A DNA stretch of 64,000 nt, taken from the IMG/VR virus record IMGVR_UViG_3300035211_000097, positions 31,703 to 95,702 of that record; one strand, given 5' to 3'. The notes beneath the pieces are model-generated. The model did no database searches, was not told the DNA's origin, and saw nothing but the letters and a program-made list of their open reading frames with translations. Position 1 is the first letter of the stretch. The number at the start of each line of letters is the position of its first letter. Shown here piece by piece: positions 6,664 to 50,719 of this stretch. A program made the translations under genes and the position numbers. This DNA comes from a virus.

Positions 6664-6952
6664 TTTTGATTTAAAATTAGATGTCTGGATTTGTGAGCAT
6701 TTTAAGGTATTGCCTACAGAACAGAGATTTAAGGATTTATCAGGTAGACAGAAACTGATTTTGTGGTTTGGTTGCTTATATACACCGAGTAGGGAAGTGA
6801 TGCAAAGAAGTTTCTTACTTTCAAAAAAGAATGAAGAGAGGTTTGGTGTTGATGAGGTAACAGCTGATGCTCTTAAACAGAGTGGTTACAGCAAAGAACA
6901 AATAGAGGCCATACAAGATCAGCTGAAAAAGTTTACAGAGAAAGGTGAGTAA
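6536..6952 (+). CDS. Tail assembly chaperone, downstream frame (gpT-like, via frameshift)
   Basis: The frame is open over 138 codons and its distinct part begins around 6620 (TTDVIEKEVQDSF, a helical C-terminal extension). The ATG at 6536 has no ribosome binding site and lies deep in the upstream gene, so I regard this as the second half of a frameshifted product running from 6277 to 6952 rather than an independent gene. The helix-rich tail ending KKFTEKGE directly precedes the tape measure start. Independent initiation at a TTG near 6614 cannot be excluded but has no Shine-Dalgarno sequence. Confidence 0.65.
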   Translation: MLIHGSATMNSLSWNFSQGTYPFVTNLSKTLTTDVIEKEVQDSFDLKLDVWICEHFKVLPTEQRFKDLSGRQKLILWFGCLYTPSREVMQRSFLLSKKNEERFGVDEVTADALKQSGYSKEQIEAIQDQLKKFTEKGE

Positions 6953-13763: not shown

Positions 13764-14845
13764 TGGCTTTCGGAATAAAGAGTTTTAATACAATCGTAAG
13801 TGACATGGTCGCTTATATTACGCTTCATTCTTCCAAGATAACTGATTTCAGTCCGGGGAGTATTATGCGGTCAATGCTGGAAGGTGTTGGTATTGCTCTG
13901 GAAGATTTTTATTTTGCTACATATGTAGGGTTTAAAAATTATCTTCAGAACATACAAAAATATGTCTTTGATTTTCCACGAAAGGAGGGGCAGAAAGCTA
14001 CTGTAAATGTGGTTTTCAGCAGGACAGATACATCTTCGAGCGCAACGATCCCGGCAGGTACTGAGGTGCAGACAGCTACGGGCTTGAAATTTTATACTAC
14101 AACTCTGGTAACCATTAATGTAGGGGTTACTGATTCTGTGGCTACTGAAGTGGAAGCGGAGATTGTCGGTAAGGATTATAATGTAGGTGCTGGGACTATT
14201 AATTTGATTTCTTCAGCAGTGCCTCATGTGGACACGGTTACTAATGCAGCTTCAGCAGCAGGCGGTATCGATCAGGAAAGTGATATCTCGTACAAGGCTC
14301 GGTTCCAGCTGTATATTGAAGGATTGGGCCGATGTAATGTTGCCGGTTTACGAGCAGCTGCATTAGGTGTTGAGGGTGTAACTTCAGCTTATGTGGAAGA
14401 GCATTTTCCTCCGATCAGTGATGTGAATGCTACAATGTACATTGACGATGGTTCAGCTGGCGGTGCCAGTGCTGCGTTGGTTCAGGAAATTCAGGATTTA
14501 ATAGATGGGGACGGGACAGAAGACAATCCCGGATACAGAGCTGCCGGGGTACAGATAATAGTTGTGGCCCCTACAGTAATTCTACAGAATGTCACGGCTA
14601 CTATCGAATTGCTTACTGATATCGATCCAGCGAATGTAGACACTCAGATTAAAGAAGCCATCACTTTTTATATGGCCTCTCTGGGAGTGGATCAGGAAAT
14701 TGTCAGGGAAGAAATAGATTATGCTATAATGAATGTACACGGTGTTTATAATTGCGAGGTCACAATACCAGCAACAGATGTGGCTATCGGTGCTAATCAG
14801 GTAGGGCGTGTGGGTACCTTCAGTTTTACTTATATTGAGGTGTAA
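13763..14845 (+). CDS. Baseplate J-like protein (gp6-like wedge)
   Basis: 360 residues; ATG overlaps the preceding stop and has GGGAG upstream. The sequence shows typical baseplate J features: the opening TDFSPGSIMRSMLEG, the IPAGTEVQTATGLKFYTT segment, the GGIDQESDISYKARFQ segment and a C-terminal domain ending in VGTFSFTYIEV. Members form the wedge dimers linking hub to fibres. Confidence 0.88.
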   Translation: MAFGIKSFNTIVSDMVAYITLHSSKITDFSPGSIMRSMLEGVGIALEDFYFATYVGFKNYLQNIQKYVFDFPRKEGQKATVNVVFSRTDTSSSATIPAGTEVQTATGLKFYTTTLVTINVGVTDSVATEVEAEIVGKDYNVGAGTINLISSAVPHVDTVTNAASAAGGIDQESDISYKARFQLYIEGLGRCNVAGLRAAALGVEGVTSAYVEEHFPPISDVNATMYIDDGSAGGASAALVQEIQDLIDGDGTEDNPGYRAAGVQIIVVAPTVILQNVTATIELLTDIDPANVDTQIKEAITFYMASLGVDQEIVREEIDYAIMNVHGVYNCEVTIPATDVAIGANQVGRVGTFSFTYIEV

Positions 14846-43679: not shown

Positions 43680-43977
43680 TCTTCTCTTTTGTTCTTACTG
43701 TGAATCGTGGCTCAAGAAGTCGGCTTTCAGTAACGGGTCACCTATCTGCAAAGTTTGTACCGATGTTTATTTACAAGTGGACAGTTATCGGGAACCTACT
43801 TATTCTACTATTTTAAATGGATATGTAAATTTATTTTTGGCTATCAGGGATCGGGCCATACTGGATCATGCGCAGGAAGATTTTGACAGTTATTGGATAT
43901 GGCAATTCTCTGATGTTTGGGATTCTCTCAGTTCTCTCTTCCGGTCTGACAATTCATATAAAATTTCTGATATTTAA
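43645..43977 (+). CDS. Small zinc-ribbon protein
   Basis: GTG start inside the end of the terminase gene; 110 residues. CSYC (about 17-20) and CKVC (about 35-38) make a four-cysteine zinc ribbon; the rest is helical and aromatic (DSYWIWQFSDVWDSL). No ribosome binding site is obvious, so translation may be coupled. Function unknown. Confidence 0.5.
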   Translation: MKVTSKASISSDLLFCSYCESWLKKSAFSNGSPICKVCTDVYLQVDSYREPTYSTILNGYVNLFLAIRDRAILDHAQEDFDSYWIWQFSDVWDSLSSLFRSDNSYKISDI

Positions 43978-44001
43978 ATTTAGGGACGATAAAGTAACAA
44001 T

Positions 44002-44030
44002 TTGACATATAACTTGACTCATGTTATAAT
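44002..44030 (+). promoter_or_regulatory. Consensus sigma70 promoter with extended -10 (leader 1)
   Basis: TTGACA (44002-44007), exactly 17 bases, TATAAT (44025-44030), with TG at the extended -10 position. This is the best housekeeping promoter in the window. About 66 bases around it (from AAATTTAGGGACGATAAAG to AGTATAAGTAAGGGA) are repeated almost unchanged at 45.6 kb. It should give strong early transcription of the small-gene island. Confidence 0.9.
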
Positions 44031-44036
44031 TAAGTA

Positions 44037-44215
44037 TAAGTAAGGGAAGGATATTTGACAGAGCAGGGAAAGGGAGTTCAGGGAACTGACTAAAGGATTG
44101 TCGGACTGAATGGATCGAGTACTGAAGTAGAGAAGGATGCATACCCTCCTATCTGATAACTTGATTGAAGTTATGAGACGGGAGAAACCCGAAGCAATAT
44201 TTTGGAGGTAGGCAA
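44037..44215 (+). ncRNA. Structured 5' leader 1 with anti-Shine-Dalgarno segment
   Basis: About 180 untranslated bases. A conserved block (GGAGTTCAGGGAACTGACTA at 44073 and TGTCGGACTGAATGGAT at 44099) is shared with leader 2; CTGAC can pair with GTCGG. GCATACCCTCC (44139-44149) is complementary, with one bulge and one mismatch, to GGAGGTAGGC (44204-44213), the ribosome binding site of the next gene. Between them are two hairpins: ATAACTT/AAGTTAT (44056-offset block at 44156-44174) and CGGG/CCCG (44179-44191). The arms differ in leader 2 but still pair. Confidence 0.65.
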
Positions 44216-44401
44216 ATGCATAAAGGAAGACTTGAGATGGCCAGAGAATATGGACGGAAAGCTTTTAAAGCAGGGAAGAAAAGAGTACCGGCATTGGACA
44301 ATAATTTGCCGAGATTTATGAAATATGATAATGCTAAATACGCCGTGGCTCTTCTGAAAGAATGGTTTACTGGATGGGATGAAATGAACATGGCTGATTA
44401 A
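44216..44401 (+). CDS. Small protein resembling ribosome modulation factor (RMF/CrpP-like)
   Basis: 61 residues; ATG with GGAGG at 44204. The pattern of basic N-terminus, EYGRKAFKAGKK, a proline, then a C-terminal WFTGWDEM is reminiscent of RMF and related small phage proteins (G-x-AG ... W-x-GW). RMF binds near the anti-Shine-Dalgarno end of 16S rRNA and dimerises ribosomes. Similarity is short and judged by eye. It is the first gene after the strong promoter and structured leader. Confidence 0.5.
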   Translation: MHKGRLEMAREYGRKAFKAGKKRVPALDNNLPRFMKYDNAKYAVALLKEWFTGWDEMNMAD

Positions 44402-44404
44402 AGA

Positions 44405-44456
44405 CTTTGTGGGTAGTTCTACGGAGCTACTTGCTGACTCTTTATACTTTGGAGGT
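44405..44456 (+). promoter_or_regulatory. Intergenic two-part UTR element, copy 1
   Basis: Starts three bases after the TAA stop: CTTTGTGGG, stem GTAGTTC/GAGCTAC closed by a TACG tetraloop, TTGCTGA, then GGAGGT just before the start of the next gene. Confidence 0.75.
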
Positions 44457-44463
44457 ATGTAAG

Positions 44464-44775
44464 ATGAAGAAAGACTTTTTTAAGGATTTCAGGTACGAAG
44501 ACAAAATTACAGACGTTGTCTCTGTTAAGATGAATACGGTTGTGGTTATGGTTGATGATCTTGAGATTACAGTACAGCTGGTTCCGGGTGGCGTAGGCCA
44601 TTACGATATCTGGGTTTCGTTCGGAAAGGGATATATCAGAAAGACTTATTACAGAAGAACGATGACGGAAGCCGATAGAGAATGGTTTATGGAATTCCGG
44701 GAAGTGTCTCTGGAAATACGTGATGAGAAAGCGACACATTTTTTCGATGACATTGAAAAACGGTTGTATGGGTAA
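44464..44775 (+). CDS. Hypothetical protein of the small-gene island
   Basis: ATG at 44464 follows GGAGGTATGTAAG; an ATG directly at the ribosome binding site is followed at once by a TAA and cannot be the start. 103 residues, beta-rich first half (VVSVKMNTVVVMVDDLEITV) and helical acidic C-terminus. No family recognised. Confidence 0.65.
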   Translation: MKKDFFKDFRYEDKITDVVSVKMNTVVVMVDDLEITVQLVPGGVGHYDIWVSFGKGYIRKTYYRRTMTEADREWFMEFREVSLEIRDEKATHFFDDIEKRLYG

Positions 44776-44778
44776 AGG

Positions 44779-44827
44779 CTTTGTGGACAGCTCTTCGGAG
44801 CTGCCTGCTGATTCTTTACTTGGAGGT
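44779..44827 (+). promoter_or_regulatory. Intergenic two-part UTR element, copy 2
   Basis: Three bases after TAA: CTTTGTGGA, perfect stem CAGCTC/GAGCTG with a stable TTCG tetraloop, outer GG/CC pairs, CTGCTGA, then GGAGGT. Confidence 0.75.
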
Positions 44828-44833
44828 ATTGAT

Positions 44834-45049
44834 ATGCAAACACAAACGGAATTTATAAATGACACTGGTTCCTCTGTGATTATGACAGTCACAGAGCGTG
44901 GAAAATACAGTACCCTTACTGTTGAGCATGAAGATTATGACGGACAGGGTGGGCCAGTACACGAGCAGGACGTACCTGCTGACGAGATAGATAAAGTCTG
45001 TCGGGAGTGGGTACGGGATTTGCTCGGCTTAAAGTTCAGACCAGTGTAA
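44834..45049 (+). CDS. Hypothetical small protein
   Basis: 71 residues; ATG seven bases after GGAGGT. Sequence MQTQTEFINDTGSSV then a beta-rich acidic domain and WVRDLLGLKF near the end. No family recognised. Flanked by repeat elements on both sides. Confidence 0.6.
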   Translation: MQTQTEFINDTGSSVIMTVTERGKYSTLTVEHEDYDGQGGPVHEQDVPADEIDKVCREWVRDLLGLKFRPV

Positions 45050-45052
45050 AAG

Positions 45053-45120
45053 TTTTGTGGACAGTCCTACGGGGCTGCCTGCTGAATCTTTATACTTTAT
45101 ATTATAAGAGATTGAGGAGG
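45053..45120 (+). promoter_or_regulatory. Intergenic two-part UTR element, copy 3
   Basis: Three bases after TAA: TTTTGTGGA, stem CAGTCC/GGGCTG with TACG loop, CTGCTGAATC, then a longer second hairpin (AATCT...AGATT) and GAGGAGG. Confidence 0.7.
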
Positions 45121-45126
45121 TCAGCG

Positions 45127-45357
45127 GTGATAGAATATTGGGATAATATTGATATAAAACTTATAAAAAAACCTAATATGTATGGATTGATATTTGAGGT
45201 AAACTCATTGGCTTATGATGAATTGGAGTTATACATCGGGGAGCTTATTGAGTTTGAAGGTCAAAAATATATGGTTAAAACAGTGAATCATCTTTCTTCA
45301 GAAAAAAGAGAAAGCAGGGTCTATATCGGTTCAAAACTTATATCTAAATCTCTTTGA
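45127..45357 (+). CDS. Hypothetical small protein
   Basis: GTG start at 45127, six bases after GGAGG. 76 residues with a beta-rich pattern (GLIFEVNSLAYDELELYIGE, KYMVKTVNHL) suggesting a small beta barrel. No family recognised. Confidence 0.55.
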   Translation: MIEYWDNIDIKLIKKPNMYGLIFEVNSLAYDELELYIGELIEFEGQKYMVKTVNHLSSEKRESRVYIGSKLISKSL

Positions 45358-45407
45358 ACGGAACACGGTATTTGAGTGTGGATCACTGCGAATATCTGGA
45401 TTAAAGA

Positions 45408-45456
45408 TTTTGTGGGTCGTCTATTGGACGGCTTGCTGAACCTTTAACGATGGAGG
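45408..45456 (+). promoter_or_regulatory. Intergenic two-part UTR element, copy 4
   Basis: TTTTGTGGG, stem GTCGTC/GGACGGC, TTGCTGAAC, then GGAGG. Here the element lies 50 bases after the previous stop rather than three; the extra 50 bases hold no visible feature. Confidence 0.65.
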
Positions 45457-45461
45457 GTTTT

Positions 45462-45581
45462 ATGATTGGTGTATGCATTGGTGTAGTATTTGTGGGATTG
45501 TTGATAACAGCTTTCCTACTGTACCGGAAAGATTTAAAAGAGTGTCAGGTGTATTTTGGAATCTACAAGTATAGAAAGTAA
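45462..45581 (+). CDS. 39-residue membrane protein
   Basis: ATG six bases after GGAGG. A single transmembrane segment (VCIGVVFVGLLITAFLLY) followed by a short basic tail ending YKYRK. The strong ribosome binding site and the UTR element in front argue that this very short gene is real. Function unknown. Confidence 0.6.
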   Translation: MIGVCIGVVFVGLLITAFLLYRKDLKECQVYFGIYKYRK

Positions 45582-45590
45582 GAAGTAAAA

Positions 45591-45612
45591 TGCAGGGCGT
45601 TCCTGCCCTGCA
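45591..45612 (+). terminator. Stem-loop before promoter copy 2 (weak terminator candidate)
   Basis: TGCAGGGC (45591-45598) pairs perfectly with GCCCTGCA (45605-45612). Only AAAATTT follows, so rho-independent termination on the + strand would be weak. Located between the end of one transcription unit and the second strong promoter. Confidence 0.5.
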
Positions 45613-45638
45613 AAATTTAGGGACGATAAAGTAACAAT

Positions 45639-45667
45639 TTTACATATAACTTGACTCATGTCATAAT
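45639..45667 (+). promoter_or_regulatory. Sigma70 promoter with extended -10 (leader 2)
   Basis: TTTACA (45639-45644), 17 bases, CATAAT (45662-45667), with TG at the extended position. It is a near-copy of the 44.0 kb promoter, slightly further from consensus in both boxes, so probably weaker. Confidence 0.85.
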
Positions 45668-45673
45668 AGAGTA

Positions 45674-45873
45674 TAAGTAAGGGAAAGGGAGATCAAACCT
45701 GAAGTACTTAAGGTCTTTGAAAGATGAAGGGGGAAGGAGTTCAGGGAACTGACTATGATGTCGGACTGAATGGATAAACCCCGGATAAGCGAAGGATGCA
45801 TACCCTCCTTTCAGAGAGTTTAGAAATGAACTTTCCGATGGGAGTAATCCCAAAAAAACCTTGGAGGTATGCT
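45674..45873 (+). ncRNA. Structured 5' leader 2 with anti-Shine-Dalgarno segment
   Basis: About 200 untranslated bases sharing the conserved blocks of leader 1 (45736-45755 and 45759-45775). GCATACCCTCC (45798-45808) pairs over ten base pairs with GGAGGTATGC (45863-45872), with one bulged C. Between them lie hairpins GAGAGTT/AACTTTC (45814-45835) and TGGGA/TCCCA (45839-45852). These occupy the same places as in leader 1 with different but still pairing arms. The likely role is control of translation by hiding the ribosome binding site. Confidence 0.7.
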
Positions 45874-46770
45874 ATGAAAGCTACTAAATCAAATCCCTTT
45901 TTTACAGTATCAAGAGAAGAACTTTACAGGAAGAACACTACAAACAAACCGGAAAACGGAAAGATGATCTATACAGGTTATGACAGCCTTTACCGGAAAG
46001 ACAACGGCAGACAGCTGGCAGTAGTTAGCAAACAGTATGAGGTTATTACTCATCGAGAAGCCGTTGACACAGCACACCACGCTCTGCGTGATGTGGGGAT
46101 AATGAACTTTAAATTTGAAAGTGAAGTATCCTATAGTGGTGCGCAGCTGTTTCACAAGATACAGTTTCCTGAATACAAGTTTAATCTTGATGACAACAAT
46201 GGTAAGTCACTGAGAGGTACCGCACTGGACTCTGGCAGTAAACTGGGTGAAGGTGCTGTTCCGCAGATCGTGGTCAAGAACACTTACGATGGAACATCCA
46301 GCTTGAATTTTACTTATGGTATTTTCAGATTGGTCTGTTCAAACGGCATGATGGTCGGCACACAGGTTGACAAGATTGCAGTTACCCATTCAGGTGAAAT
46401 TGATTTTGAGAGTATTGGTGATCGTATCATTGAAAATCTGGAAGCAACAATCGAAGGTGCTAAACGCAGTTACCAAAAGCTGAATGCTGAAGACGGTTTT
46501 GATCTGTTCAAACAGATCATGATTACAGATGCATGGCTCAGTAACCGCTACAATAACCTTGTGTTTGATATGCTTGAAAAACAGGTAACTGTAGAGTGGG
46601 ATAAAGACGAAGAAACCGACAAGCTCGTTCCTGTCGATGCTCGTCTTAAACAAGAGTTTTCAAAGTATGCACTGTGGTGTGTATTAACTGAAGTGGTAAC
46701 ACACAGAATCCACTCGGCACAGCACAGGGACAGGTTAAGTCGAAAGATTGCAAAGTCTTTCACTGCCTGA
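45874..46770 (+). CDS. DUF932-like protein
   Basis: ATG at 45874 follows GGAGGTATGCT. 298 residues. The segments QLAVVSKQYEVITHREA, FRLVCSNGMMVG and the helical C-terminal half with RIHSAQHRDRL match the DUF932 (phage/plasmid-like protein) family, widespread in phages and conjugative elements with no established function. It is the largest protein of the island and stands behind its own strong promoter and leader. Confidence 0.75.
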   Translation: MKATKSNPFFTVSREELYRKNTTNKPENGKMIYTGYDSLYRKDNGRQLAVVSKQYEVITHREAVDTAHHALRDVGIMNFKFESEVSYSGAQLFHKIQFPEYKFNLDDNNGKSLRGTALDSGSKLGEGAVPQIVVKNTYDGTSSLNFTYGIFRLVCSNGMMVGTQVDKIAVTHSGEIDFESIGDRIIENLEATIEGAKRSYQKLNAEDGFDLFKQIMITDAWLSNRYNNLVFDMLEKQVTVEWDKDEETDKLVPVDARLKQEFSKYALWCVLTEVVTHRIHSAQHRDRLSRKIAKSFTA

Positions 46771-46773
46771 TGG

Positions 46774-46838
46774 CTTTGTGGGCGGTTCCACGGAACCGCT
46801 TGCTGAACTCATCAGGGTTCTAAAAATACTTGGAGGTA
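46774..46838 (+). promoter_or_regulatory. Intergenic two-part UTR element, copy 5
   Basis: Three bases after TGA: CTTTGTGGG, perfect stem GCGGTTC/GAACCGC with CACG loop, TTGCTGAAC, second hairpin GAACTC/GGGTTC, then GGAGGTATG. Confidence 0.78.
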
Positions 46839-46844
46839 TGCCAG

Positions 46845-47153
46845 ATGAAAATTGAGAAAGGAACAATATTGAACTTTAGAGGATCATGGGGATCGGGAAT
46901 CGGATATCTTGTAATTCAGAAAGAAGGCGAGAGAGAAGAGATATCGGTACCATGTGAAAACGGTGCTACAGTCAGAGCGTTATCCAATTACGTAGACTGT
47001 ATTACTACTGGTCACGGCGTGGATGTGGACAAGATAAAAGGCATGGAAATATTCTACGCAATGGAAGGCTGGGGAACAATGGCCGGGCTCGTTCCTACCG
47101 AACATGCAACTCCTGAGATGTGGGATTTGTATGAGTCTGGTTACGAAGACTAA
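46845..47153 (+). CDS. Hypothetical protein of the small-gene island
   Basis: ATG after GGAGGTATGCCAG. 102 residues; a beta-rich N-terminal half (GTILNFRGSWGSGIGYLVIQ) and acidic C-terminus. No family recognised. Confidence 0.65.
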   Translation: MKIEKGTILNFRGSWGSGIGYLVIQKEGEREEISVPCENGATVRALSNYVDCITTGHGVDVDKIKGMEIFYAMEGWGTMAGLVPTEHATPEMWDLYESGYED

Positions 47154-47156
47154 GGG

Positions 47157-47208
47157 CTTTGTGGGTGGTTCCACTGGAACCACTTGCTGAACTTTTAGTT
47201 CAGGAGGT
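47157..47208 (+). promoter_or_regulatory. Intergenic two-part UTR element, copy 6
   Basis: Three bases after TAA: CTTTGTGGG, eight-base-pair stem GTGGTTCC/GGAACCAC, TTGCTGAAC, second hairpin GAAC/GTTC, then GGAGGTATG. Confidence 0.78.
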
Positions 47209-47215
47209 ATGACAG

Positions 47216-47545
47216 ATGGTACTTTTAACACAGGAAATTCTTAAAAGGATTCCGAGCATTGACGAGGATCGTGCGGTTGAACCGGACAGTGAAAAAAGAA
47301 TGGCGCATGCCAAGCTATTCACTCCCGATGCAAACTGGACATGGTACTTGATTGCTTATGATCCTGAAGAGGAACTGGCGTACGGTCTGGTAAAAGGATT
47401 CGAGGTAGAATTCGGTTACATCAGTATGGCAGAGATCAAGAATCTCAGGGGGCCGATGGGTCTGGCTGTTGAGCGTGACAGGAGCTTTACCAAGATGAAC
47501 GTGAAAGAGCTGTACGACAAAATCAAAGCTGGAAAGCATGTGTAG
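47216..47545 (+). CDS. DUF2958-like protein
   Basis: 109 residues; ATG after GGAGGTATGACAG. The order LLTQEILKRIPS, AKLFTPDANWTWYLIAYDP, GLVKGFEVEFGYISMAEI and GLAVERDRSF matches the DUF2958 family, small proteins common on mobile elements. Molecular function of the family is unknown. Confidence 0.8.
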   Translation: MVLLTQEILKRIPSIDEDRAVEPDSEKRMAHAKLFTPDANWTWYLIAYDPEEELAYGLVKGFEVEFGYISMAEIKNLRGPMGLAVERDRSFTKMNVKELYDKIKAGKHV

Positions 47546-47551
47546 CTTAAA

Positions 47552-47625
47552 ACCTTGGGGATGAGATTACGGTCTCATTCCTTGGGTGGTAAGACACTGA
47601 AAAATCTGAAATAACCTTGGAGGTA
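47552..47625 (+). promoter_or_regulatory. Divergent intergenic hairpin element, copy 7
   Basis: CTTGGGGATGAGA pairs with TCTCATTCC around a TTACGG loop; the CTTTGTGGG and CTGCTGAA boxes are replaced, but CTTGGAGGTATG before the next gene is kept. Probably a degenerate or differently specific copy. Confidence 0.55.
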
Positions 47626-47631
47626 TGTGAG

Positions 47632-47976
47632 ATGGGAATATTAAGAACAAATGATTGGGAGATGTTCAGGTATTCGTTATTCTGCGATATTCTTGAACAG
47701 CTCGGTGGATCAGAACCTACAGACGAAGATATTTGGGAACAGATGCGAGAGTCTGTAGAGGTACCATTGGCTGAGAATTACTATTATGATGAGGTGTTAG
47801 GCCGTATCAAAGCAAAGCTTGATGAGGAAGGCATTGAGTCAAGTTATTATGTTAATTCTCGGGATACTCATTTACACATCTATATTGATGGTTGTTCAGA
47901 AGAAGTTACCAGCATGTCAGAATTTGATGATATGTATGAACGGGCTAAAGCTGAACTTGACGATGTTGATGAGTAG
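47632..47976 (+). CDS. Hypothetical acidic protein
   Basis: ATG after GGAGGTATGTGAG. 114 residues, strongly acidic (LEQLGGSEPTDEDIWEQM, AKAELDDVDE). The sequence SSYYVNSRDTHLHIYIDGC is a likely beta hairpin. Acidic small proteins in phage early regions often mimic nucleic acid, but nothing here proves that. Confidence 0.6.
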   Translation: MGILRTNDWEMFRYSLFCDILEQLGGSEPTDEDIWEQMRESVEVPLAENYYYDEVLGRIKAKLDEEGIESSYYVNSRDTHLHIYIDGCSEEVTSMSEFDDMYERAKAELDDVDE

Positions 47977-48026
47977 GTTTTCTGAGCTGTCTATAGGGCA
48001 GCTTGGTGAATTTTAATGCTTGGAGG
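47977..48026 (+). promoter_or_regulatory. Divergent intergenic hairpin element, copy 8
   Basis: GTTTTCTGAG, stem AGCTGTC/GGCAGCT with TATAG loop, TTGGTGAA, then TTGGAGGTATG. It keeps the plan with altered boxes and begins directly after the TAG stop. Confidence 0.6.
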
Positions 48027-48034
48027 TATGTGAT

Positions 48035-48409
48035 ATGAAGAAAAGAAAAACAGCTGATGTGTATTATCAGACACCGCTACAATGGAAAGATTTACTGGGG
48101 GTATCAGTACGACAGCGTGAGAATCTTCAGTATGTGGTCAAGCTAAATGAAGTTGAACAGAAAGGCCGTTATAAGTTTGTCAGGTCGATAGATTATAGCT
48201 GGCTACCACAGACTAAACAAGAGGCTGATACTTTGGATGAAGTTTATCGGTTGATGCAGGGCGAGGTCTGGTCACCTAATGGGGAGGCCAGAGAGTTGAT
48301 TGAGTCTTTGAGACTTCACCATACATCTATGAGTGTAGGTGATGTGGTGAAACTTGCAGATGGTACTTTCTGGATACTTAATAGTATCGGCTGGGGGCGG
48401 TTGAGCTGA
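48035..48409 (+). CDS. YodL-like protein
   Basis: 124 residues; ATG after GGAGGTATGTGAT. The C-terminus (LHHTSMSVGDVVKLADGTFWILNSIGWGRL) matches the typical ending of YodL-like proteins of mobile elements (H-S-x-S-V-x-D-V). The N-terminal half is basic. Function of the family is unknown. Confidence 0.65.
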   Translation: MKKRKTADVYYQTPLQWKDLLGVSVRQRENLQYVVKLNEVEQKGRYKFVRSIDYSWLPQTKQEADTLDEVYRLMQGEVWSPNGEARELIESLRLHHTSMSVGDVVKLADGTFWILNSIGWGRLS

Positions 48410-48417
48410 AGCATAGG

Positions 48418-48478
48418 CTTTGTGGGTAGCCTATTGGGTTACCTGCTGAACCTTATGGTTCGAGAAAATTTTGGAGGT
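48418..48478 (+). promoter_or_regulatory. Intergenic two-part UTR element, copy 9
   Basis: Eight bases after TGA: CTTTGTGGG, stem GTAGCC/GGTTAC with outer GG/CC support, CTGCTGAAC, second hairpin GAACC/GGTTC, then GGAGGTATG. Confidence 0.78.
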
Positions 48479-48483
48479 ATGCC

Positions 48484-48864
48484 ATGGAATTAACAAGCAA
48501 GAATGTAGATGCTTTATTCAAAAAGTGTTTATATACCGAAGGTGAAGTTGTTGAAGGTCATATTCCGGTAGAAGGGGTTATAACAAGGGTCGGGTTTCAT
48601 CCGGGGCGTATTGAGGAAAACAAAGTTGAAATTGAAAACTTGTTAAATCAGCTTCCTGACAGTTTCAGTAAAAGCATGGGAGGTGGACATTCATTTCTTC
48701 AGGCATGTGTGGATAACAAAGGTAGACAGTGGGGTGAACATCGGAACATTGATCAGTTGCTGATGTTGGGTCTGGCAATAGGCAAGGCACACTACTGTAT
48801 AGAAAACCGGCAGGCATGGAGAGTCATGCCGGGAGGAATGCCTTATTTCTACATCGATGATTAA
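48484..48864 (+). CDS. Hypothetical protein of the small-gene island
   Basis: 126 residues; ATG directly after GGAGGTATGCC. Mixed alpha/beta sequence with a glycine-rich turn (SFSKSMGGGHSFLQACVDN) and a C-terminal MPGGMPYFYIDD. No family recognised. Confidence 0.65.
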   Translation: MELTSKNVDALFKKCLYTEGEVVEGHIPVEGVITRVGFHPGRIEENKVEIENLLNQLPDSFSKSMGGGHSFLQACVDNKGRQWGEHRNIDQLLMLGLAIGKAHYCIENRQAWRVMPGGMPYFYIDD

Positions 48865-48867
48865 CGG

Positions 48868-48932
48868 CTTTGTGGGTGGCCTGCTGGGTCACCTGCTGAA
48901 CTGTTAACCAGTTCAAAAAAATCTATGGAGGT
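48868..48932 (+). promoter_or_regulatory. Intergenic two-part UTR element, copy 10
   Basis: Three bases after TAA: CTTTGTGGG, stem GTGGCC/GGGTCAC, CTGCTGAAC, second hairpin GAACTG/CAGTTC, then GGAGGTATG. Confidence 0.78.
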
Positions 48933-48938
48933 ATGCCT

Positions 48939-49139
48939 ATGAGTGAAAAGGTGAAACCCACAATTTACATTGAGGAAGGTGAAAACGTATTCGGTATCTT
49001 TGGAAGGTTCCAGAGAGAGGCCCGGAAAAACGGCTGGTCGCAGGAAGATATTGACGAGGTTCTGGATAAGGCGAAAGCCGGGGACTATGAAAATGCTGTT
49101 GCTGTGATCAAGAAAAATGTGGAGGTCGAAGAGTTATGA
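48939..49139 (+). CDS. Small acidic protein
   Basis: ATG at 48939 is preferred over 48933 for spacing from GGAGG. 66 residues, helical; the segment NGWSQEDIDEVLDKAKAGDY has the look of a small helix-turn-helix or UBA-like bundle. No family recognised. Overlaps the next gene (ATGA). Confidence 0.6.
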   Translation: MSEKVKPTIYIEEGENVFGIFGRFQREARKNGWSQEDIDEVLDKAKAGDYENAVAVIKKNVEVEEL

Positions 49140-49447
49140 GAGTAGATATTGATTTCACAGATGTCGGGTACGGTATCCCGGATGTCGGGGAAACGTTCAG
49201 ACGTAAACGTGGTTACACGCTGTACTTACGTGTCGATACTCGGTACATAGAGGATTTGGAATTTGAAGACAAAAGAGGTCGGGGTGGTAAGGTCAGCATG
49301 GCAAAAACATTCGATATGGATCGCTATTTTTTTGGAGTACGGGTAGATACAGGTATTATCCATTACTTCAAAAAAGAGGACGCTTACAATTGTGTTGTAA
49401 TGCCTACCAAAGTGGTCATGGATATGGAGGCTATCGATGAAGGGTGA
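49136..49447 (+). CDS. Hypothetical protein
   Basis: 103 residues; ATG overlaps the previous stop, with GGAGG thirteen bases upstream. Beta-rich (YTLYLRVDTRYIEDLEFEDK, YFFGVRVDTGIIHYF). No family recognised. Confidence 0.6.
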   Translation: MRVDIDFTDVGYGIPDVGETFRRKRGYTLYLRVDTRYIEDLEFEDKRGRGGKVSMAKTFDMDRYFFGVRVDTGIIHYFKKEDAYNCVVMPTKVVMDMEAIDEG

Positions 49448-49583
49448 CACACTTGAAAGAATTCAGGCAGACCTGAAGGGCCTGAAAGAAAAAGTAAGGT
49501 TGGGCCAGCTGACTTATGAGGCTTACTGTATTCAAAAGGCGAAGGTCAAAAAACGACTGAGGGAATTTCAGGGTAAAGCCTAA
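49437..49583 (+). CDS. 48-residue basic helical protein
   Basis: ATG at 49437 with GGAGG six bases upstream, overlapping the previous stop. Sequence begins MKGDTLERIQADLKGLKEKV and continues as one long charged helix ending LREFQGKA. The regular spacing from its stop codon to the next UTR element (three bases) supports that it is translated. Confidence 0.6.
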   Translation: MKGDTLERIQADLKGLKEKVRLGQLTYEAYCIQKAKVKKRLREFQGKA

Positions 49584-49586
49584 AGG

Positions 49587-49650
49587 CTTTGTGGGCTATC
49601 TGCTGGGTGGCCTGCTGAATCTTTATGGTTCAATATTAAATCTTGGAGGT
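49587..49650 (+). promoter_or_regulatory. Intergenic two-part UTR element, copy 11
   Basis: Three bases after TAA: CTTTGTGGG, stem GGCTATC/GGGTGGCC (with G-T pairs), CTGCTGAATC, second hairpin GAATC/GGTTC, then GGAGGTATG. Confidence 0.75.
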
Positions 49651-49654
49651 ATGT

Positions 49655-50221
49655 ATGAGTTTAAATTGGAACAGTGAAAACTGTGTGGGATGGGAAGAAC
49701 TGCAAGAGAGTGCAAAGGAACGGAGCATTACTGATGCGATTATCTGGGCTTCTTGTGTGGTTGGTATTCCTGAGATCAAGGCAGATAACATAGTGGAATT
49801 CCACTATCGGAGTAATCTGTATGATGCGATTGCCGGGGCAAGAATGCATGACTTATTGCCTATGTCGAGCGATAATAAAAGTGATTGGGCTGTACCACGT
49901 CCGATTAAGGTAGATGATTTGCAAAAGAGGATCGGATTGATGACCAATGCGCCTGAGTTTACTACTCCACAGTTCTTTAAGAACTTACGGAAGATGTATG
50001 ATCGGGAAGTTGAGAAAAGTGATTTTCATCTCCGTGGTATACTTCGGGGAGACGAGCAGGCTGAGTTTCATAAGAAACAGGGTTGTCCCGGATGCTTTTA
50101 TGCTGATGAGAAAGCGATAGCGAGAAAGATGCCTTGTTGTACTTTCGGGCAAACGTGTACCAGTCCCCCACAATTTGACAAGGATGGAAAGTGTCTCACA
50201 AGGAAAGCGAGGGGCGTATGA
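49655..50221 (+). CDS. Hypothetical protein with C-terminal cysteine cluster
   Basis: 188 residues; ATG four bases after the GGAGGTATG motif begins its ATG, so 49655 is preferred to 49651. The C-terminal 50 residues contain CPGCFY, CCTFGQTC and KCL, a possible zinc or iron-sulphur site. The N-terminal part is mixed alpha/beta. No family recognised. Confidence 0.6.
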   Translation: MSLNWNSENCVGWEELQESAKERSITDAIIWASCVVGIPEIKADNIVEFHYRSNLYDAIAGARMHDLLPMSSDNKSDWAVPRPIKVDDLQKRIGLMTNAPEFTTPQFFKNLRKMYDREVEKSDFHLRGILRGDEQAEFHKKQGCPGCFYADEKAIARKMPCCTFGQTCTSPPQFDKDGKCLTRKARGV

Positions 50222-50385
50222 CTATCAAGGAAAAATGCCAGAGGGCATGTATGGCGATTGAGTACGTGAAAGAGTGGTTGGAGATTGTTGAAGAAGATGC
50301 TGGTAAAGACTTACTGCGTGTTGATGATGATAAAATGCTTGCAAATATTGAGGCTTATTTGACAAGCAGACCAACTACGAAGTAA
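50218..50385 (+). CDS. 55-residue helical protein
   Basis: ATG overlaps the previous stop (ATGA); GCGAGGGG lies upstream. Sequence begins MTIKEKCQRACMAIEYVKEW and is helical and acidic. No family recognised. Confidence 0.55.
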   Translation: MTIKEKCQRACMAIEYVKEWLEIVEEDAGKDLLRVDDDKMLANIEAYLTSRPTTK

Positions 50386-50388
50386 CAG

Positions 50389-50441
50389 CTTTGTGGGCTA
50401 TCCTCTGGGTAGCCTGCTGATCTGTTAAAGATCAATGGAGG
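50389..50441 (+). promoter_or_regulatory. Intergenic two-part UTR element, copy 12
   Basis: Three bases after TAA: CTTTGTGGG, eight-pair stem GGCTATCC/GGGTAGCC, TGCTGATC, second hairpin GATCT/AGATC, then GGAGGTG. Last copy of the series. Confidence 0.78.
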
Positions 50442-50446
50442 TGTTT

Positions 50447-50719
50447 ATGGGATTATTGCAACATGCAATAGAAATGGAGACGGGACACCTGAGAAGTATA
50501 GGTGTCCAGCAATATGGATTACACACAATGCTTATGTATGAATGTGTGACTTGCGGTTCTACGTTTCCTGCGATATTTTCTGAAGACATGAAGGTATCAG
50601 GATCAGAACACATGGATGCTGAGGATATTGTGAAGTTGGCCCCGGAAATGGTGCCGAGTTGTAACGGTGAAAAAGTAAAGCAGTGTCCATGGTGCAGAAA
50701 AAAAGCAGCGATAAATTAG
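50447..50719 (+). CDS. Small zinc-ribbon protein
   Basis: 90 residues; ATG after GGAGGTGTTT. CVTC (about 33-36) and CPWC (about 80-83) form a split four-cysteine zinc ribbon around an acidic middle. Its stop codon TAG is the first part of promoter copy B. Function unknown. Confidence 0.6.
   Translation: MGLLQHAIEMETGHLRSIGVQQYGLHTMLMYECVTCGSTFPAIFSEDMKVSGSEHMDAEDIVKLAPEMVPSCNGEKVKQCPWCRKKAAIN

Follow-up and report, generated by a model that had tools for sequence, protein, structure and literature searches.

Anti-Shine-Dalgarno (anti-SD) translational riboswitches and attenuators hold the SD in an upstream complementary segment and have alternative folds. The phage leader RNA described here is like them in that its SD is held by an upstream complement in two predicted folds, and unlike them in lacking a known aptamer and in having an upstream domain that is not conserved between phages. 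Trans-acting RNAs are represented by the phage antisense RNA c4 of P1 and P7 and by the SreA riboswitch small RNA. As with these, the complementarity of a leader or small RNA could extend to other mRNAs; in contrast to them, a single short segment would here fit many SDs, and the free RNA is only hypothetical. In lambda, nutL lies ~200 bp upstream of N, and N translation is repressed when Nus factors and N are bound, a repression described as an RNA loop (PMC5725501). The leader resembles nutL-N in placing a boxA-like motif and a hairpin before a long structured stretch that precedes the SD of the first gene, but here an explicit anti-SD is predicted to cover the SD, and no N-like protein or boxB is recognized so far. 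The 5' UTR of Escherichia coli suhB also has a boxA in an mRNA leader, where it represses translation and lies 6 nt from the SD (PMC5725501), whereas the boxA-like motif here is >100 nt away with the anti-SD platform between. The boxA consensus given in PMC5725501 is GYTCTTTAANA. Literature searches found no description of such a leader. We class it as an anti-SD translational-control leader whose unusual features are the boxA link and an SD shared across a gene island.

The window analyzed here is a 64,000-nucleotide stretch of DNA that spans positions 31703-95702 of a 95.7 kb virus record (IMGVR_UViG_3300035211_000097), a bacteriophage judging by its terminase and portal genes. The same layout occurs twice: a near-identical promoter, a leader of 180-200 nt, and a gene (Table 1). 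The two promoters sit in a 73-nt repeat that is 95% identical, and a third copy of the promoter block is found at record position 6800 without a leader. A palindrome scan revealed the imperfect palindrome TAACTTGACTCATGTTA inside all three promoters (window 44010-44026 and 45647-45663; record position 6833). In promoter 1 it overlaps the spacer and the -10 element, and it is a possible candidate operator. Hairpin 1 of leader 1 (44157) is similar to this palindrome.

Table 1. Features of the two leaders and the gene island (window coordinates).
Feature	Position	Strand	Details
Promoter 1	44002..44030	+	TTGACA - 17 nt - TATAAT
boxA-like segment, leader 1	44050..44060	+	GATATTTGACA, degenerate, then GAGCAG
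Upstream hairpin, leader 1	44076..44111	+	UUCAG[GGAA]CUGAC-loop-GUCGG[A]CUGAA; proposed sensor blocks
Anti-SD, leader 1	44139..44149	+	GCATACCCTCC
Hairpin 1, leader 1	44152..44178	+	
Hairpin 2, leader 1	44179..44191	+	CGGGAGAAACCCG; GGGAG at 44180-44184 is the alternative CUCCU partner
SD of gene 1	44204..44213	+	GGAGGTAGGC; one mismatch to anti-SD
Gene 1, behind leader 1	44216..44401	+	61 aa; phrog_19203 (unknown function)
Intergenic hairpins, one family	44399..50428	+	11 between island genes; TTTGTGG-stem-CYTGCTGA
Extended SD GGAGGTATG	44451..49653	+	44451, 45863, 46832, 47203, 47619, 48022, 48473, 48927, 49645
Promoter 2	45639..45667	+	TTTACA - 17 nt - CATAAT
boxA-like segment, leader 2	45712..45722	+	GGTCTTTGAAA
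Upstream hairpin, leader 2	45739..45771	+	proposed sensor blocks
Anti-SD, leader 2	45798..45808	+	GCATACCCTCC
Hairpin 1, leader 2	45811..45838	+	
Hairpin 2, leader 2	45839..45852	+	TGGGAGTAATCCCA; GGGAG at 45840-45844 is the alternative CUCCU partner
SD of DUF932 gene	45863..45872	+	GGAGGTATGC; pairs with anti-SD via one bulge
DUF932 gene, first behind leader 2	45874..46770	+	PF06067, E 4.5e-14

The first-pass annotation had proposed that both leaders carry an anti-SD segment complementary, with one bulge, to the SD of the gene that follows. The segment GCATACCCTCC does occur exactly twice in the window, in the leaders only (shuffle mean 0.02). The complementarity is full in leader 2, whereas leader 1 has one mismatch. 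Duplex energy by itself is weak evidence for the pairing: 86 of 5000 shuffled versions of leader 2 pair with the SD equally well, as do 683 of 5000 for leader 1, whose SD duplex is no better than chance.

Comparative folding of the two leaders confirmed a shared fold. The stretch from the anti-SD to the SD has an RNAalifold energy of -18.8 kcal/mol compared to a mean of -3.6 for column-shuffled alignments, and 0/2000 shuffles were as low. The two hairpins between the pairing partners form in both leaders, and the pairs changed on both sides (3/33 in the consensus) are all in hairpin 1, whose pairing is preserved. The multibranched structure closed by the SD/anti-SD helix, also proposed at the outset, does not have the lowest energy. 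CUCC sits on the SD in ~75% of the leader 2 ensemble but in only a few percent of that of leader 1, in which it occupies the invariant GGGAG of hairpin 2 (93%). In this second fold CUCCU pairs with GGGAG, CAUACC with GGUAUG, and CCAA with UUGG. In leader 2 the CUCC-on-SD and CUCCU:GGGAG folds have energies of -32.3 and -32.4 kcal/mol; in leader 1 these are -25.1 and -28.2 kcal/mol. The gap between the folds is at most 0.7 kcal/mol in leader 2 and in the leaders of the related phage L008 (below), compared to 3.1 kcal/mol in leader 1. The SD is predicted to be buried in both folds, and CUCCU:GGGAG is predicted to form first in the growing transcripts of both leaders. Opening the leader 2 SD would cost 7.9-9.1 kcal/mol with 100-170 nt of upstream sequence, the highest value among 14 gene starts; the cost for leader 1 is 3.6-5.6 kcal/mol, which ranks second among the 14 only with 100 nt upstream. 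A transcription attenuator was rejected because no U-run adjoins hairpin 2 in either leader by eye.

The comparison covered five terminase relatives, among them L008, which came from the terminase scan and whose terminase is 44% identical to that of the window phage. A first covariance model, built from the two window leaders, matched L008 at E 1.2e-5 (2.9e-6 unfiltered) and detected no leader in the other four records; L007 gave a partial match (E 0.04) to the upstream hairpin only, without the SD platform. Adding one L008 leader to the two window leaders gave a second model, which recovered the other L008 leader, itself left out of the model, at E 9e-5. The search for homologues located the same leader in L008 in two copies, each behind one of two TTGACA-17-TATAAT promoters. 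The L008 anti-SD is CACACC(A)CCTCC and its SD is GGAGGTGTG. Between the window phage and L008 the two partners change jointly from CAUACC/GGUAUG to CACACC/GGUGUG, one U-A pair becoming C-G, and both L008 leaders are fully complementary to their own SDs. When refolded, they adopt both alternative folds with nearly equal energies. The first-pass annotation had counted relatives that keep the leader without complementarity as evidence against its proposal; the opposite was found, as complementarity in L008 is restored by change. The leader pairing looks real given these matching changes on both sides, on an evidence base of two phages and four leaders in which the closing helix contributes a single independent change of both partners. 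SD sequestration in cis, a property of the predicted folds, is supported because the leader 2 SD is the hardest to open and because the complementarity survives in a distant phage, where both sides have changed.

Searches beyond these relatives gave no further leader. Exact-DNA-pattern searches of viral contigs returned only chance matches (1, 0, 21, 63, and 1 match): inspection of the 21 matched stretches recognized no intergenic copy, none of the 63 kept both full stems, and the last single match is inside a coding sequence. Among three matches to genome contigs, L030 and L032 had no leader context, and L031, of the same species as L032, was left out. Neither the region nor one L008 leader matched any phage by blastn, and protein searches with DUF932, terminase, portal, and gene 11 gave no further leader-bearing relative among those inspected.

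The genes behind the leaders are non-homologous between the window phage and L008, which argues against a tie between the leader and any single gene product. It is extremely unlikely that gene 1 encodes an Rmf/CrpP-like protein that binds the 16S-like anti-SD segment and regulates its own synthesis. A weak NCBIfam match below the cutoff (E 0.067; 12.8 bits versus 28) prompts the idea, but the record has no PF04957 match, a low-confidence structure model of gene 1 gave no fold match, and none of the other three leaders precedes a related gene.

The upstream part of the leader begins with a putative boxA-like antitermination motif, absent from the first-pass annotation and new here. GGTCTTTRAMA is present in leader 2 and both L008 leaders (three of four) and is degenerate in leader 1; TTTGACAGAGYAG is common to the boxA-like region of leader 1 and an L008 leader. 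Three leaders match the boxA consensus at 9-10 of 11 positions and leader 1 at fewer; the consensus is gamma-proteobacterial and may not be that of the host. On the + strand of the window and L008, three of the five TCTTTRAMA occurrences fall in leaders, which make up 1% of the bases, with the motif picked post hoc. Further downstream, the two window leaders show 100% identity in blocks GGAGTTCAGGGAACTGACTA and TGTCGGACTGAATGGAT, the sequence between the blocks has diverged, and the blocks pair as a hairpin with a GGAA/A internal loop. Their earlier interpretation as a sensor domain agrees with this invariance within the phage, but it is weakened by L008, where the blocks are not recognizable and a different upstream domain is conserved between its own two leaders. 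A leader peptide was also rejected; ATGGAT lies in block B of both leaders, but the frames differ in length (6 versus 17 codons) and in sequence by eye.

A structured leader with an SD-occluding platform and upstream blocks that are invariant within the phage is what a classical small-molecule riboswitch would look like. We consider this very unlikely. The upstream blocks are not conserved in L008, Rfam 15 covariance models gave 0 matches at the gathering threshold over the whole window, and at E up to 1 the region 43900-50500 gave only three sub-threshold matches, all outside the leaders and none relevant. Comparison of the two phages suggests that the signal is a nut-like element or another RNA-binding complex rather than a metabolite.

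The extended SD of the DUF932 gene recurs before most downstream genes, as first noticed in the initial annotation. GGAGGTATG has 10 occurrences in the window, nine of them in the island, where it makes up 9/14 SDs compared to 0/31 GGAGG sites elsewhere in the record. The corresponding L008 island has GGAGGTGTG at 8/12 SDs compared to 0/9 outside. Gene starts were assigned by one single rule, and the Fisher values are 2e-6 and 0.005 with island limits chosen after seeing the data. GGAGGTGTG is not in the window, and GGAGGTATG is not on the L008 + strand. The islands have few genes in common (3 matches in 18 x 16 comparisons, one marginal), and the only two clear pairs are DUF932 (25%) and a 48% pair. 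The latter is a small conserved protein at window 48035-48409 and L008 15303-15632, 48% identical over 65 aa. That each island has its own uniform SD though few genes are shared favors one factor that reads all of these SDs, perhaps the leader acting in trans.

It is rather doubtful that the leader RNA, free or processed, coordinates many island genes in trans by base pairing with the extended SD they have in common. Such trans regulation would account for the island-specific SDs, for the fit of each SD set to its own leaders, and for the UAUG extension, which we take to depart from the complement of the 16S 3'-end. The anti-SD is complementary to several island mRNAs, but only over the SD and about four more bases; the window anti-SD does no better on its own SDs than on those of L008, with which it pairs through U-G (-14.9 versus -14.9), and it is already paired in cis. 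In addition, the terminase relative L005 has 4/26 identical SDs (GGAGGGAAG), and the covariance-model search found no leader in its record. GGAGGGAAG precedes L005 starts at 14086, 18689, 20265, 20670, and 21536. Doubtful as well is an operon-wide ribosome binding site code, in which each phage of this group would equip one island with a shared extended SD and carry leader RNAs to match, a single leader RNA gating the gene behind it in cis and all of the island in trans, and SD and anti-SD coevolving as genes turn over.

The SD regions of phage mRNAs can also be read by proteins, as by RegA and RegB of T4. It is unlikely that GGAGGURUG is read in this way here by an RNA-binding protein or nuclease of the phage, with leader pairing hiding or mimicking the site. 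The uniform extended SD fits such a reader, including the CTT that lies upstream of it in many copies and has no complement in the leader, but no such protein was identified, and the idea does not alone predict covariation of leader and SD. A local mini-hairpin around the SD found no support as the cause of TATG/TGTG in the window, where 921/2000 shuffles were as good; support in L008 is weak (33/2000).

The island genes are separated by hairpins of ~20 base pairs that belong to one family (199/231 cells paired versus at most 189 in 1000 shuffles). These are possible candidates for RNase III-type processing sites. Phage T7 has RNase III processing hairpins, which are likewise long hairpins between consecutive genes; unlike these, the elements here contain the strongly conserved UUUGUGG and CYUGCUGA. 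At 47552-47586, the space between two island genes contains a different strong hairpin, CTTGGGGATGAGATTACGGTCTCATTCCTTGG, in place of a family member, and strong intergenic hairpins also occur in L008 (13734-20277), several with GTGGGG ... CCTTGCGG. One tentative but possible explanation is that genes entered between copies of one intergenic unit of hairpin plus SD and that the anti-SD merely tracks its own SD in cis. The single family agrees with this, with 9/11 members beginning with TAA/TGA, as do the strong intergenic hairpins of L008 and the partly uniform SDs of L005 without a detected leader. In contrast, the spacers between hairpin and SD are unlike one another, and the stems have diverged with pairing kept, so inserted units would have to be old; moreover, something maintains TATG or TGTG.

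Our best reading is that the leader is a cis translational-control element, perhaps nut/boxA-coupled, and that this phage 5' leader RNA probably controls translation of the first gene in each of two transcription units. Computation gives the common fold, the two-sided anti-SD/SD change between two phages, the predicted SD burial, and the boxA-like motif. The near-identical promoter would drive each leader copy, which would present the boxA-like motif, then the phage-specific hairpin, and then the platform of anti-SD, hairpin 1, hairpin 2, and SD. The platform would keep the SD shut in either fold, with CUCC on the SD or with CUCC on GGGAG and the SD split between CAUACC and CCAA. We infer that translation stays repressed by the leader until its upstream part is bound. 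Since the platform is kept between the phages and the upstream hairpin is not, the likeliest binder is an RNA-binding complex and not a small molecule; as in lambda nutL/N, it could consist of host Nus factors, alone or together with a phage protein.

Because the pairing partners changed in concert between two distant phages, short reporter constructs would allow a direct test of the idea. If it is true, one phage leader RNA would join a motif resembling an antitermination site to a bistable platform that hides the SD, and a shared ribosome-binding sequence could serve to switch a set of otherwise unrelated phage genes jointly.
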